A DNA stretch of 34,324 nt from a virus. The position numbers were made by a program, and so were the translations under genes. Position 1 is the stretch's first letter; the number at the start of each line of letters is the position of its first letter. Of the stretch, positions 2,282 through 32,229 are shown one piece after another. Below the pieces are notes generated by a model that saw only the letters and a program-made list of their open reading frames with translations, was not told the DNA's origin and did not search any database. Where the stretch lies: IMG/VR virus record IMGVR_UViG_3300031962_000016, positions 1 through 34,324 of that record; one strand, 5' to 3'.

Positions 2282-2430
2282 ACATTCTCGAAGCGCAGAT
2301 CGAGCGACTGGCGGAGAACGACATCGAACTCCAGAGGCTCATTGAGTCTTTAGCGGAACAGCAAAAGCAAATCACCCAAATCTTGGATAAACTCACAGAC
2401 AAGGTGGTTGCGTTGTATGGACCTCGCTAA
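2266..2430 (+). CDS. small coiled-coil protein, non-ATG start
   Basis: An open frame with no ATG, GTG or TTG at its head encodes a clean leucine/isoleucine heptad helix of about 54 residues (LEAQIERLAE..., then ...LIESLAEQQKQI) that ends just inside the terminase gene. GGAGG at 2259-2263 lies immediately before ATT 2266, which would give Met-Thr-Asp-Lys-Val-Asp as the N-terminus. The spacing of 2 nt is short, so ACG 2269 or ATT 2284 remain possible. The coil quality and position make a real gene likely; the start is uncertain. A -1 frameshift extension of the upstream gene is an alternative, but no good slippery site is seen. Confidence 0.4.
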   Translation: MTDKVDILEAQIERLAENDIELQRLIESLAEQQKQITQILDKLTDKVVALYGPR

Positions 2431-4189
2431 AGCGGAAAAATTTCTCTCGCGTTTTTCGATCCGGGATCGCGATAGTCACAAGCAGATTCCGTTCGTTCTC
2501 AACTATAACCAGAAGAAAATCCACGCGCGAGCGGCAAGGCAGCAAGCCAAAGGCCAGCCTATACGTATCATCGTCAATAAAGCAAGGCGTGTCGGCGTTT
2601 CCTCTTGGTCGGAAGGACTCGGCTTCTGCCACTGCTGCGACCTGCCAGGAGCGCACTTCCTCATCGCCGCGCACGAGTTCAAGTCCTCGAAGGCGCTGTT
2701 TTCCATCCCGAAGACTTTTGCAAAACAGGCGCACTTCCTCAACCTCCGCGACGTCGAACGCGAAATTACCTTTCCTCACTCGACTGCTGAATCGCTCATG
2801 CAGATCGTCACTGCCGGTAAAGACACTTCCGGCCGCGGCTTCACGCTCTCGGGACTGCACCTAAGCGAGGCCGCGCACTACAAAGGCCAGGGCGAAATCT
2901 TTACTTCCGTGATTCCAGCGCTCTCAAATCACCGGGATACCATCGGCATCATCGAGTCCACGCCGAACGGCATGGACGGCGAGGGCGAAGACTTCTACAA
3001 CATGTGGCTTGATGCAGTGAATGGCCAGAGCGAGTACGAAGCGGAGTTTCTTACTTGGGTTGACGACCCAGCCTGTGTTGCCGACCCGTCCATCGCCAAG
3101 AACGCGCCGATGGACAAGGAAGAAAAGGAACTACTCAAGCGCGGACTCACGAAAGCGCAACTCGCTTTCCGCAGAATCAAAATTGCTTCGCCGGAGTGCG
3201 GCGGCCTCGTCGAACTGTTCCACCAAGAATACCCGACTACGTGGGAAGAATCGTTTATCACTTCCGGCTTCCCGGCCTTCGCGGAGATCGAGCGCCAATG
3301 GGCCAGTAAGAACACCAAGCCTCCGAAGTGGCAAGGGTTCATCGACCACAGCGAAGACGGCAAACTCAATTTGCGCGAGCACCACCACGGCGACTTCCTC
3401 ATCTGGCAAGATCCCATTCCGGGGCACTACTACTACGTGGGCGCTGACGCGGCGCGCGGCGACGACGAGGACAAGACCAAGGACCGCGACTTTGCGGCCA
3501 ACGTCACCTTCGACGGCAACACCGGACGGCAAGTGTGCCGCTACGCTGGCTTCGTCGTGCCGGAGATTCACGCCTGCTACCTCAACTCCATCGGCCTGCG
3601 CTACAACAAAGCTATGCTCAACGGCGAACTAACGGGAGGCTACGGCTACGGCACGCTTCACGTCGTGCGTGACATCCTGGGCTACCCGAACCTCTACCGC
3701 TGGAAGGGCAAAGACGACAAGATCGGCTCGTGGGCCAGCGGCAAGAATGCCGTATGGATCGAGACGACGCAGCATATCCGCACGATGCTCTTCGAGTCCA
3801 TGCGCGCCGCGCTGCGCGAAGCCGCGGGAACCCAAGGCGAGTACGGCATCACCGTCTACGACGAACTGCTCGCTTCGCAGATCAGGATGTGCACGCGGAA
3901 AGAGACTGGACGCATCGACGTGAAGAAGGGCAAGGACGACGTGCTTTTCGGCGCGATGATTGCAAATCTTGCGATGCGGCAATGGAGTCCGCCCCGCACC
4001 TATAATCAAGCGCGGTCGCACGACCAGGAAGAGGACGAAGAAGTGCGGAAGAAGATGGGCCTGCGCGGCGACGAGATTCAGGACGACGCCTGCCTCGCGC
4101 TGCAAAAACACTACGAGAAAATCATGAAGAAGGTCGATAACTACCCGAACGAAGAGGAGTACGAAGATTCTCCGATAGGAGTAAGTTGA
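2417..4189 (+). CDS. terL: terminase large subunit
   Basis: This 590-residue protein is the DNA-packaging motor ATPase and headful or site-specific nuclease. Walker A-type KARRVGVSS lies at residues 55-63. A Walker B-type strand with SEA follows (catalytic Glu 151), and the coupling segment IIESTPNG is at about 178-185. The family hallmark EYPTTWEESF...SG is near residues 271-284. The RNase H-fold nuclease carries the three expected acids: Asp 344 in VGADAARG, Glu 404 in NGE and Asp 508 in KDDVLFG. ATG 2417 follows AAGGTGG by about 9 nt; an in-frame TTG at 2408 is possible. It overlaps the coiled-coil frame upstream and the next gene by one base. Confidence 0.95.
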   Translation: MDLAKAEKFLSRFSIRDRDSHKQIPFVLNYNQKKIHARAARQQAKGQPIRIIVNKARRVGVSSWSEGLGFCHCCDLPGAHFLIAAHEFKSSKALFSIPKTFAKQAHFLNLRDVEREITFPHSTAESLMQIVTAGKDTSGRGFTLSGLHLSEAAHYKGQGEIFTSVIPALSNHRDTIGIIESTPNGMDGEGEDFYNMWLDAVNGQSEYEAEFLTWVDDPACVADPSIAKNAPMDKEEKELLKRGLTKAQLAFRRIKIASPECGGLVELFHQEYPTTWEESFITSGFPAFAEIERQWASKNTKPPKWQGFIDHSEDGKLNLREHHHGDFLIWQDPIPGHYYYVGADAARGDDEDKTKDRDFAANVTFDGNTGRQVCRYAGFVVPEIHACYLNSIGLRYNKAMLNGELTGGYGYGTLHVVRDILGYPNLYRWKGKDDKIGSWASGKNAVWIETTQHIRTMLFESMRAALREAAGTQGEYGITVYDELLASQIRMCTRKETGRIDVKKGKDDVLFGAMIANLAMRQWSPPRTYNQARSHDQEEDEEVRKKMGLRGDEIQDDACLALQKHYEKIMKKVDNYPNEEEYEDSPIGVS

Positions 4190-4608
4190 TGCCCAGCTAC
4201 AGTTTGGATTTACGCGACCCGCAAGTTGCCCTGCGCATCCTCGTCTGTCTCGTCGAGCAATCGAAGCGCAAGGAGCTTCAGTTTCCCGCCGAGGATTATG
4301 ATTCTCTCACACACGGGAAATTGCTTTTGGTTGACTACAGCCGAAAAAAAGGCGTAATTTCACTGCGTGTCACCTCCGACAACGGAGCCGCTATTCCAGT
4401 AGCACCTGAGGCACATCAATGGGTGAAACCACCGGAAGCCGGGCCGCTCGAAAGAGCAAGACTGGTAGCCGAGCAGGAAGCGGAGCGCAGCGGAGTGAAG
4501 AGCGACGAGGAACTGGCAGCGCTCGAAGAGGAGATGGAGAGGAGACAAGCGGTAGCGCGGCTGGCCAAGGAAGGGAAGAGCCCGATGCGCCTCAAAACAG
4601 TGAAGTAG
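4189..4608 (+). CDS. hypothetical protein with coiled-coil C-terminus
   Basis: ATG 4189 has TAGGAG seven bases upstream and overlaps the terminase stop by one base (TGATG). The 139-residue product begins with a mixed alpha/beta region (1-75). It continues into a long Glu/Arg/Ala-rich helix (about 85-130) with coiled-coil character. The position between terminase and portal is typical of small packaging or head accessory proteins. No family is recognised. Confidence 0.65.
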   Translation: MPSYSLDLRDPQVALRILVCLVEQSKRKELQFPAEDYDSLTHGKLLLVDYSRKKGVISLRVTSDNGAAIPVAPEAHQWVKPPEAGPLERARLVAEQEAERSGVKSDEELAALEEEMERRQAVARLAKEGKSPMRLKTVK

Positions 4609-4631
4609 GGACGCTCAAGGACGCGCGCTTC

Positions 4632-4883
4632 GTGCTGACGAACATGGGCCTGGAGTTCAACCACGTGCGCGAGACGAAAGGCTACATCGCGGCGCTCAAG
4701 AAGTACCAGCAGCGTCTCAACGAGTTTGGCGGCACGCTCGCCGACATCATGAGCCCCAAGGACATCATGGACAAGATTCTCGACATCGAGAAGGAACTGC
4801 GCAGCCTAAGTTCATCTGGAAGTTCCGGCACGGGCAGTGCGCTTGACGAAGTGCGGCACTTTCTGGGGAGTACAGTCCACTAA
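4632..4883 (+). CDS. hypothetical helical protein
   Basis: GTG 4632 with AAGGA about 10 nt upstream gives an 83-residue helical protein. It has Lys-Tyr-Gln-Gln-Arg-Leu-Asn-Glu and Ile-Leu-Asp-Ile-Glu-Lys-Glu-Leu helices and a Ser/Gly-rich linker before a short terminal helix. The frame stays open upstream to ATG 4419, which itself has GAGG seven bases ahead. That longer form would overlap the preceding gene for 190 nt with a low-complexity Arg/Gly/Ser tail, so I prefer the short form. ATG 4644 is a third option. The role is unknown. Confidence 0.55.
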   Translation: MLTNMGLEFNHVRETKGYIAALKKYQQRLNEFGGTLADIMSPKDIMDKILDIEKELRSLSSSGSSGTGSALDEVRHFLGSTVH

Positions 4884-4884
4884 A

Positions 4885-4980
4885 ATGCGTAACTGGCTCG
4901 ACACAAATTATCGCTGGCTCATGCTGGCCGGTATGGTGATAGAAATTCTGCTCATCGCTATTCTCGTGGTGAAACACTAA
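4885..4980 (+). CDS. 31-residue single-span membrane peptide
   Basis: This tiny frame encodes MRNWLDTNYRWLMLAGMVIE followed by an Ile/Leu-rich stretch ending VVKH. A single hydrophobic span covers about residues 12-28, with a charged C-terminus. Its stop overlaps the ATG of the next gene (TAATG), a sign of coupled translation. It is placed between terminase and portal. The function is unknown; a small membrane regulator is possible. Confidence 0.5.
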   Translation: MRNWLDTNYRWLMLAGMVIEILLIAILVVKH

Positions 4981-29711: not shown

Positions 29712-29820
29712 CGGGACCGCCTTGACTTCGCGGAACTGCCCACACACTTGGTTGCTTCAACTACGCCACCTATTCGCGTGTAGTGTCAAGGGTACTAACA
29801 GGACCGCACCCCTCCATGAC

Positions 29821-30016
29821 TCACCATGCCGTAGCCTTCCACGACACGCCTTGCCGAACCAAACACCGCCATAATATGCCATAGCACGCCCACACCGGGA
29901 CTAACCCGACCTCATCCCATCGAACCGTGCCCATCCGTACCACGCCTGAACATTCCACGCCAAAGAGAGCCTCAGCCCGCCCCGCCTTGCCACTGAGCGG
30001 CTTGCCGGAGCCGACC
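29821..30016 (-). repeat. 5-nt periodic array (GGNNN), downstream segment B
   Basis: Read in fives on the + strand, 29821-29890 gives 14 units, nine ending in CC (ACGCC, TTGCC, GAACC and so on). After a one-base slip, 29902-30016 gives 23 units, 15 ending in CC. On the minus strand, the strand of the adjacent gene, each unit starts GG. Units are not identical: only the GG and the spacing are kept. Recurrent units are GGCGT, GGCAA and GGTTC. A long frame runs through it on the minus strand (29821-30288), but a 5-nt period does not favour any codon frame. Confidence 0.8.
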
Positions 30017-30055
30017 AGGGGAAACTTTTCATAAAAATCCATGCCAAACTCCGCC

Positions 30056-30165
30056 ATGCCGAACCGTGGCCAGCCAGACGGCACCACACCGAAGCGCACC
30101 GTGTCCCGCCACAACAGAGGGTACCTCAGCCCGCCCGGCCTTTGGCGGCCCGACCATACCTCGCC
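30056..30165 (-). repeat. 5-nt periodic array (GGNNN), downstream segment A
   Basis: From 30056 to 30165 there are 22 consecutive in-phase pentamers with no slip, and 14 end in CC on the + strand (GG-first on the minus strand). Looser units continue to 30235, into the 3' end of the minus-strand gene. A non-periodic gap of about 40 nt (30017-30055) separates it from segment B. The array follows the 206-residue gene directly. Confidence 0.8.
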
Positions 30166-30217
30166 AGCACCTTGCCGGACCGATAGCCGGTCACTCCGCG
30201 CCCAGGACCACCTCGCC

Positions 30218-30838
30218 TCAAACTTGCTCGACCATAAAATGCGTAATGGCAAATCGCCCGAATGTTGGCCTGAAATCTCCGACTCCAACGAGTCTGCCAG
30301 CAGCTTGAAGCGTTTCGTTCAGCAGCATCGGAGAAATATATTCTGGCAAAAGAATCTGAAACTGCATGCAGGCCTTCCAGCCCTGATACATTGCCGGGCG
30401 ATGGCGAGTGATTCCGTTTCTTTGAACCATCACGCGGCGCCTATCAATGTAGTCCCAATCCTTGACACCCAGAGAGCACAGGTCATTCAGGCTTACCAGA
30501 CCAGCCTTGAACAAATCCATTGCAGACTTGCGCGGAGAGCGGGGATCTTGCTTGTATTTCGCGGCATTGATTGCTGCCATTCTGAAATATTCGGCGGGAA
30601 CACAAAGATTTCCTTCGCGGTCACGGTAAACGTAACTTTCCAAATCATCTTCTTTTTTGGCCTTGCTGCCCTTTGCCGCTTTGCTCTTCGCTTCTACTCC
30701 ATCAACGCTCCATCGGTGAAAGAGGAACGCTGCGGAGCCTTCCACGCTCACATTGGCGAGATAAGGAAGCCCGCTTTCGATTGCGAAGGCGCCATCATTG
30801 CTGACTTGTGCTACGATTGTTGCCGTTTCACCTTTCAT
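30218..30838 (-). CDS. putative RNA/ssDNA-binding protein flanked by pentamer arrays
   Basis: This 206-residue protein starts at ATG 30838 (minus strand) behind AAAAGGAG, a perfect ribosome site. The N-terminus has a beta segment and SAAFLFHRWS. A Lys-rich loop (KAAKGSKAKKED) is at about 53-64, and RSPRKSA at about 100-106. The C-terminus reads strand (ACMQFQILLPE), helix (SPMLLNETLQAAGRLV), glycine loop (GVGDFRPTFGRF) and strand. The order strand-helix-Gly-loop-strand is that of RRM/RAMP-type domains as in Cas6/Cas7. I recognise the overall look from other phage sequences but know no function for it. Both flanks are 5-nt periodic arrays on its own strand, which points to binding of that sequence. 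Confidence 0.7.
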   Translation of the reverse strand: MKGETATIVAQVSNDGAFAIESGLPYLANVSVEGSAAFLFHRWSVDGVEAKSKAAKGSKAKKEDDLESYVYRDREGNLCVPAEYFRMAAINAAKYKQDPRSPRKSAMDLFKAGLVSLNDLCSLGVKDWDYIDRRRVMVQRNGITRHRPAMYQGWKACMQFQILLPEYISPMLLNETLQAAGRLVGVGDFRPTFGRFAITHFMVEQV

Positions 30839-30881
30839 GTTTTCTCCTTTTGAATTTAGGTCGGCAACGCTTTCAGAGAGC

Positions 30882-31080
30882 TTGCCGAACCTTGCCTTAC
30901 AAGACCTTACCCAAGCTAGCCGAACCCGAACGAACCATACACAAGAAAACCTTGCCTTGGACTACCGAACCTAAACTAATCGAACCATAACAGACCACAC
31001 CGTACCTCAGCGGAACCAACCTGACCCAGCCTGTGACTCACCAACACCCGTCCCTATCCCGGCTCAGCTTGACACGCCTT
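30882..31080 (-). repeat. 5-nt periodic array (GGNNN), upstream leader segment
   Basis: From 30882 to 31006 there are 25 consecutive in-phase pentamers without a slip, of which 16 end in CC on the + strand (GGTTC, GGCAA, GGTAA, GGTCT and others on the minus strand). GGTTC alone occurs five times. After a one-base slip, looser units continue to about 31080. The array fills the space between the zinc-ribbon gene and the 206-residue gene, so it would be the 5' leader of the latter. Confidence 0.85.
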
Positions 31081-31096
31081 AGCAAACACCGAAAAA

Positions 31097-31201
31097 TCAC
31101 TTTTTCCATTCATGCCCGCAACGGCGACACCAAAATTTACCGTCACGTTTGCGGAAAAGGACAGTTTTACTTTTACAACTCGGACATACTGGCTTGCTCA
31201 T
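31097..31201 (-). CDS. 34-residue zinc ribbon, apparently leaderless
   Basis: A very short minus-strand gene encodes MSKPVCPSCKSK, then a basic turn and FWCRRCGHEWKK: two CxxC knuckles in a classic zinc ribbon. No ribosome site precedes ATG 31201, and an in-frame TAA is just upstream, so the start is fixed. A perfect-consensus promoter ends nine bases before the ATG, which puts the transcript start at or within 1-3 nt of it. Zinc ribbons of this build bind DNA, RNA or RNA polymerase. It is the first gene of the array unit. Confidence 0.75.
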   Translation of the reverse strand: MSKPVCPSCKSKTVLFRKRDGKFWCRRCGHEWKK

Positions 31202-31209
31202 GCGGAGAC

Positions 31210-31237
31210 ATTATAAATGTGTGAGTGTGTGTGTCAA
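31210..31237 (-). promoter_or_regulatory. consensus sigma-70 promoter
   Basis: On the minus strand TTGACA (31237-31232) and TATAAT (31215-31210) are both perfect and 16 bp apart. Predicted start is near 31203, so the mRNA would begin at the ATG of the zinc-ribbon gene. The -35 box overlaps the stop codon of the upstream minus-strand gene. It is the best host-type promoter I see in the window. Confidence 0.8.
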
Positions 31238-31587: not shown

Positions 31588-32229
31588 ATGAAATACCGCA
31601 TGAAACGCCACGCGGTCCAACAGCCGCTCTCCGAGTCTTTCAGATACATTCCTTTAACACAAGGGCAGAACGCTATCGTTGATGCCGAGGATTTTGAATG
31701 GCTCAGCCAGTGGAATTGGTACGCTCAGTGGAACCCTGAGACAAATAGTTTTTACGCACGCAGAGGATTTAAACCCCCCATACATATGTCCCATGCAATT
31801 CTTCATTGTATTGGTCATAAGCAACCAGTTGATCACGAGAATCACGATACGCTGGACAATCGGAAAAGAAATTTACGAAAGTGCACTTATAAGAAGAATG
31901 CGGCTAACAGGAGAATGCACATTAACAATGTCTCTGGATTAAAAGGTGTTTGCTGGCACAAAGGGCATCGGAAATGGTCCGCTCAAATCATGATTCATGG
32001 TAAGCGTAAGTATCTTGGATTTTTCCAATCAGCTAAAGAAGCAGCACAAGCCTATGACAGGGCGGCAAGAGAGTATTTCAAAGAGTTTGCGTATGTGAAT
32101 TTTCCTTTAGAAGTTACGCCGCAGCGCGAAGAAGATTTTCTGCAATCCGTCGGCACCAGCCGCGACCAAACGTCGGCCAAGTATGAAGTGAGTCGAGAAA
32201 AAGCAAGCGATAGCTATCGAAACGCATGA
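31588..32229 (+). CDS. HNH homing endonuclease with AP2 domain
   Basis: This 213-residue protein has the two domains of phage HNH-AP2 endonucleases. An HNH segment reads VDHENHDTLDNRKRNLR (residues 81-97, His 83 and Asn 91/95). An AP2 DNA-binding domain at about 114-173 carries SGLKGVCWHKGHRKW, KYLGFF and AAQAYDRAA. ATG 31588 is preceded by TAGGAGGA, a very strong ribosome site. It is the only convincing + strand gene in a minus-strand module. Its last 38 codons, beyond the AP2 domain, run antisense through the 3' end of the lysozyme gene, as expected for an invading element that stopped just short of breaking it. Confidence 0.9.
   Translation: MKYRMKRHAVQQPLSESFRYIPLTQGQNAIVDAEDFEWLSQWNWYAQWNPETNSFYARRGFKPPIHMSHAILHCIGHKQPVDHENHDTLDNRKRNLRKCTYKKNAANRRMHINNVSGLKGVCWHKGHRKWSAQIMIHGKRKYLGFFQSAKEAAQAYDRAAREYFKEFAYVNFPLEVTPQREEDFLQSVGTSRDQTSAKYEVSREKASDSYRNA

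Follow-up and report, generated by a model that had tools for sequence, protein, structure and literature searches.

Arrays of GGYNN repeats beside a viral Vipr homologue are most likely the guide RNAs of a phage-borne VIPR system

We conclude that the window, by which we mean the whole 34,324-nucleotide stretch of viral DNA analysed here, almost certainly carries a phage-borne VIPR system, because one of its genes is, as judged from profile matching and structure prediction, homologous to Vipr, which is a RAMP protein with a single domain, and the arrays on both sides of that gene are made up of GGYNN vrRNA repeats. The arrays are most likely the guide RNAs of this system. VIPR (Viral Interference Programmable Repeat) is a kind of system that is already known, if only very recently, and the window locus is an added member; it was defined in April 2026, in a preprint (PMC13142463 / bioRxiv 2026.04.26.720920). 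There the RAMP protein Vipr is described along with vrRNAs of alternating GGY and NN, in which the NN letters pair with double-stranded DNA while one target base is skipped per unit, usually at a codon wobble position; competing elements have their transcription repressed by the complex (PMC13142463). Expression of vrRNAs, RNP formation and silencing were shown for SUSP1 and P. fulva, and the characterised vrRNAs are discrete molecules of ~100 nt with 9-16 repeats and, after these, a structured 3' tail, although staggered arrays with overlapping vrRNAs are also mentioned (PMC13142463). The phylogeny recognises seven types, an accessory gene, vap, is typical but not universal beside vipr, and VIPR is proposed as an ancestor of CRISPR (PMC13142463). 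The window locus resembles the systems of Escherichia phage SUSP1 and of a Pseudomonas fulva prophage in having a Vipr-family RAMP, flanking GGY/NN tandem repeats and a phage as its carrier.

The first-pass annotation of this DNA had picked out four blocks of consecutive pentamers on the minus strand, and our recount of these was exact: 16 of the 25 units in block 30882-31006 start with GG, as do 14 of 22 in 30056-30165, 15 of 23 in 29902-30016 and 9 of 14 in 29821-29890. It had written the unit as GGNNN. The GG and the period of five are borne out by our analysis; the third position, however, is not free, since a pyrimidine follows the GG in 51 of 54 such units, and the repeat unit of the window is therefore GGYNN. 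The blocks had also been placed in the transcribed strand of the gene between them, whereas they are in fact coding-strand (mRNA-sense) sequence. The comparison with shuffled controls that had been proposed came out 4.6-4.7 SD above expectation on each side of the gene; using dinucleotide-preserving shuffles, GG at lag 5 was observed 13 times upstream against 4.1 expected (z 4.7) and 29 times downstream against 13.2 expected (z 4.6). On either side of the gene minus-strand GG also peaked at lags 10, 15, 20, 25 and 30, and autocorrelation against shuffles gave no such peak within the 206-residue gene or in a control stretch. When either strand of the window was scanned the array threshold was reached nowhere else, the best count of in-phase pentamers per 75 nt being 7 of 15 outside the array region and 11 inside it.

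With a score that tolerates single-G changes the array limits could be extended to those of A1 to A4 in Table 1. Over the resulting 100 units the first position is G in 88%, the second is G in 70%, the third is C or T in 92%, and the fourth and fifth are near even. A 34-nt stretch is common to A2 and A3 (79% identical, spacing 154 nt), and part of this stretch (GCTGAGG...) is found again in A1. Tandem Repeats Finder did not detect the arrays in this region, because the units differ from each other. Rfam gave no match in the window region or in 15 relatives, and so no hammerhead ribozymes or other known RNAs were found in these sequences.

Table 1. Positions of features at and around the vipr gene of the window.
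Feature	Position	Strand	Description
vipr gene	30218..30838	-	206-aa single-domain RAMP (Cas7-like) protein, predicted from profile match, AlphaFold2 and Foldseek
Upstream vrRNA array A1	30882..31031	-	30 GGYNN units
Downstream vrRNA array A2	30036..30165	-	26 units
Downstream vrRNA array A3	29887..30016	-	26 units; final unit overlaps first unit of A4
Downstream vrRNA array A4	29801..29890	-	18 units
Predicted hairpin GGUUCGGCAAGC...GUUGCCGACC	30859..30891	-	3' end of A1; RNA folding
Ribosome-binding site AAGGAG	30844-30849	-	Directly after the A1 hairpin
34-aa zinc-ribbon ORF	31097..31201	-	Between the sigma-70 promoter and A1
Sigma-70 consensus promoter TTGACA-16-TATAAT	31210..31237	-	Perfect, 12/12 positions

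The protein encoded between the arrays was assigned to phrog_4652 (unknown function); it had no match in Pfam, and Pfam and NCBIfam together gave nothing useful. A family profile, built from 83 members, gave one convincing match to a solved protein, namely PDB 36pp chain D, 'SUSP1 Vipr protein' (E=5.5e-12, positions 29-199), so that the similarity to SUSP1 Vipr is distant only. The family and SUSP1 Vipr have in common a G-loop, GVGD(F/W)RPxFGRF, and the window protein carries its G-rich loop, GVGDFRPTFGRF, close to the C-terminus. An AlphaFold2 model of the window protein (pLDDT 89.6) was submitted to Foldseek, and the best matches were to type VII Cas7 and to Csm3/Cas7 chains, with E values of 3e-6 to 1e-4. 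The protein thus resembles the RAMPs of class 1 CRISPR systems (Csm3/Cas7, type VII Cas7) in its predicted RRM/RAMP fold and G-rich loop, although sequence identity to these is about 10-13%. Cas7 subunits oligomerise on a guide RNA, leaving periodic gaps in the pairing; the window has a 5-nt unit with two pairing bases, whereas Cas7 uses a 6-nt segment with five. No CRISPR repeat-spacer array and no other cas gene was recognised in the region. PADLOC gave no match for the window protein and one weak Cas5d match among 15 relatives (E=0.038).

The perfect sigma-70 promoter listed in Table 1 could, judging from its sequence, be the source of a transcript carrying A1 and vipr; chance alone should give about one promoter-like site with at least nine matches in the region. 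The predicted hairpin, a strong one, is a candidate vrRNA tail of A1. The zinc-ribbon ORF is not conserved in relatives and has no homologue near other vipr genes. Likewise, among the ORFs of 70 aa or more around the window vipr none has a homologue beside other vipr genes, and hence no vap was recognised, the check being one of ORF homology between vipr neighbourhoods. An HNH endonuclease gene (31588-32229, plus strand) adjoins the locus on the opposite strand, and in phage DSL-LC04, too, an HNH gene lies close to vipr. The terminase large subunit of the window (2408-4189, plus strand) is related to terminases encoded in the L011 (40% identity) and L051 (36%) records, and the L011 Vipr is also among those closest to the window Vipr.

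In order to examine relatives of the locus we drew on IMG/VR viral contigs, GTDB genome contigs and phage DSL-LC04; this branch is found in uncultivated-virus contigs and in planctomycete, cyanobacterial, Bacillota and other genome contigs. The first-pass annotation had suggested looking for the same periodicity beside homologues and had taken homologues that never carry it as evidence against its reading. This is not the situation in the family, because 108 of the 115 relatives' loci have a GGYNN array on the coding strand at most 700 nt from vipr, on both sides in 42 loci, upstream only in 30 and downstream only in 36. Such arrays are rare elsewhere in about 1 Mb of the relatives' flanks, and in four loci (L015, L020, L036 and L060) there are opposite-strand arrays near vipr too. 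Among the seven loci lacking an array, the stretches that carry L032 and L108 are short or truncated, and in L012 there is a weaker array below the threshold. The 4914 units from relatives and the 100 of the window alike have the composition G-G-Y-N-N. The relatives' arrays often end right before a ribosome-binding site, and putative tail-like hairpins come after many of them.

Some of these loci have features of their own. An Alicyclobacillus sendaiensis contig (L111:4556-5748) carries three GGYNN arrays, 16-18 units long, and after each of them comes a similar tail of ~60 nt (GGCCGCTT...GGTAGTG...), a clean case of separate vrRNAs with a common 3' tail in a cultured bacterium. L015 has a 595-nt GGYNN region antisense to vipr (4306-4900) and a sense array downstream of the same gene. 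Near-identical spacers, TTTTTCCAATAAAACTTT and TTTTTCCAATGAGACTTT, separate the arrays from L044:4702-4911 onward and may serve in processing or as tails between vrRNAs. L089 and L090 are two copies of a vipr locus ~100 kb apart on one Stenomitos rutilans contig.

We then asked whether the NN letters can be read with the published rule. The NN letters of 272 arrays were searched in 0.99 Mb of the relatives' DNA with skips of 0-6 bases, the arrays themselves being left out. It can be seen that a skip of 1 gave the top scores of 26, 21, 20 and 18, several of these matches being of one guide to homologous genes in related elements, so that the independent events number about six; skips 0 and 2-6 reached at most 18, and 40 shuffles of the NN order reached 20 once and otherwise no more than 18. 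The outcome was the same on 2.28 Mb, comprising most of many relatives' records, with skips of 0-4. The skipped base fell mostly at the third codon position. We conclude that these matches conform computationally to the published 1-nt skip rule for the family. Between the arrays of close relatives (16 non-independent array pairs) the NN letters changed at 2.5-3.4%, the first G at 2.8% and the Y at 6.2%; the NN letters therefore appear to be under selection, as they change like the first G and less than the Y. Indels in the array alignments favour multiples of five, but we made no use of this because periodic alignment produces such lengths by itself.

Targets in rival elements were found for the guides of L097, L094/L095, L101/L106, L039, L060 and L025, and the guides usually fit the element's own copy of the gene less well than that of the rival. 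The upstream guide of L097 matched a DUF669-like gene of L096 and other planctomycete elements at 30/32 bases and its own copy at 22/32, while the L094 guide matched the helicase gene of L083 at 23/24 and its own copy at 19/24 (the names DUF669-like and helicase are a reading of the open frames and do not come from database matches). The same L083 helicase gene was matched at 18/18 by the L101 guide, for which the best site in its own locus was 12/18, and the L039 guide matched the vipr gene of L045 at 24/26 and its own vipr at 20/26. The guides of L060 and L025 matched each other, at 27/30 and 20/20, and nothing in their own loci was matched as well. Several guides of the family thus seem, on sequence matching, to target replication genes or another vipr in rival elements. 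The 1-nt skip, its placing at wobble positions and the presence of targets in competitors, including other VIPR loci, are all features of published VIPR.

For the window's own guides, six scans of IMG/VR with 8-unit seeds found no convincing target, as the matches did not extend. There was one exception, a match of units 17-26 of A1 to L122:8948-8977 over 10 units (20/20 bases), in the wobble register of a reverse-strand 228-aa ORF that is TIR-like by eye; this is within chance given the number of matches examined. In addition, A4 units 11-18 (ACxATxGAxATxGGxGCxCCxTAx), the eight final NN pairs including one unit just past the array, match in wobble register the TIEIGAPY codons of the vipr gene of L037, the L037-type site being ACTATCGAAATTGGCGCTCCTTAT. 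Only 2 of 3000 shuffles of A4 equalled this match. However, matches of this kind are not in excess of shuffles over all guides, and for this reason the match is only suggestive of A4 being a guide against a rival vipr gene of the L037 type. A search of phages with decoded peptides found nothing.

Certain features count against the VIPR reading. The window arrays are looser than most, with GG in ~64% of the units of the four blocks, and their tracts run to 18-30 units (up to 99 in relatives) as opposed to the 9-16 reported; no vap was recognised, the guides gave no convincing target in the six scans, and the system is defined by a preprint. The long tracts, like the lack of a recognised vap and of hammerhead ribozymes by Rfam in the region and 15 relatives, set the locus apart from the characterised systems, although these tracts may be the staggered arrays with overlapping vrRNAs of the preprint. 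A potential explanation for the weaker GG and the missing target is that the locus has decayed and its arrays are former guides that are now eroding. This would agree with the second position being G in 70% of units in the window and 86% in relatives, yet we consider it unlikely, as the first G (88%) and the Y (92%) are still kept, relatives whose arrays are good likewise show the single-G changes GCY and GTY, the reading frame of vipr is unbroken and retains every family-invariant residue, and rival elements of the same habitat may simply be unsampled.

An explanation that would not need to invoke guides is that the protein is an autoregulatory coat which binds GGYNN in the flanks of its own mRNA and so controls expression, in the manner of TRAP. 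In TRAP (the trp RNA-binding attenuation protein) each subunit recognises one NAG triplet, the triplets recurring every 5 nt over 11 repeats, and it is not known to have a guide function. The likeness lies in the RNA triplets at a 5-nt period, and arrays lying on the coding strand both 5' and 3' of the gene, often up to the ribosome-binding site, would fit such a coat; the fold, however, is unrelated. This explanation is very improbable, since the NN letters are informative, matching rival genes under the 1-nt skip, and are nearly as constant as the first G between close relatives, the protein has a RAMP fold, four loci have opposite-strand arrays and VIPR as published works with guides (PMC13142463). 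We place next to no weight on the arrays being a DNA-level element read by the protein, such as a partition site or the recombination substrate that had been one early suggestion: although repetitive DNA here adjoins the gene for a nucleic-acid-binding protein, the strand bias of the arrays relative to the gene is strong, the RAMP fold and the decoding result speak against it, and with a 5-bp period each GG would face the opposite side of the helix from the one before. There is essentially no prospect that the arrays are a chance, compositional or coding artefact. G is abundant in this strand at the arrays, and the downstream ones happen to be crossed by a 155-aa open frame, but z lies above 4.5 on either side of the gene when dinucleotides are shuffled, the arrays are found again in the 108 relatives, and a period of five keeps no codon frame. 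The coat, the DNA site and chance were accordingly rejected. The decoy RNA that had also been put forward found no support, while the ideas of a spacing code and of a guide-like RNA both agree with the GGY/NN code, which is that of the published vrRNAs, and with the identity of the protein as a RAMP (Vipr).

In the favoured explanation, that of a VIPR guide system, the arrays would be transcribed as guide RNAs (vrRNAs) and a row of Vipr subunits would grip the GGY triplets, one per five bases, leaving the intervening NN letters free to pair with double-stranded DNA, where each unit would pass over one target base; once bound, the complex would silence genes of competing phages and prophages. 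Transcription, RNP assembly and silencing are taken here by analogy with the published systems (PMC13142463). VIPR is newly described, is RNA-guided with a noncontiguous code and has been proposed as a CRISPR ancestor, and it is therefore useful to have it supported independently from another branch of the family; the one-base skip rule of the preprint and its reading in terms of inter-phage conflict hold computationally on the sequences collected here. We suggest, tentatively and with rather less than even confidence, that in this branch the long uninterrupted GGYNN tracts provide several guides per RNA, drawn from genes that the phage itself shares (DUF669-like, helicase, vipr), the NN letters agreeing with the rival allele and not with the element's own, so that self and non-self would be told apart by the guide letters alone; A4 of the window would be such a guide against a rival vipr. 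The better fit to the rival gene than to the own copy suggests a simple, testable means of avoiding self-targeting, and viruses probably use VIPR to silence the genes of rival viruses.
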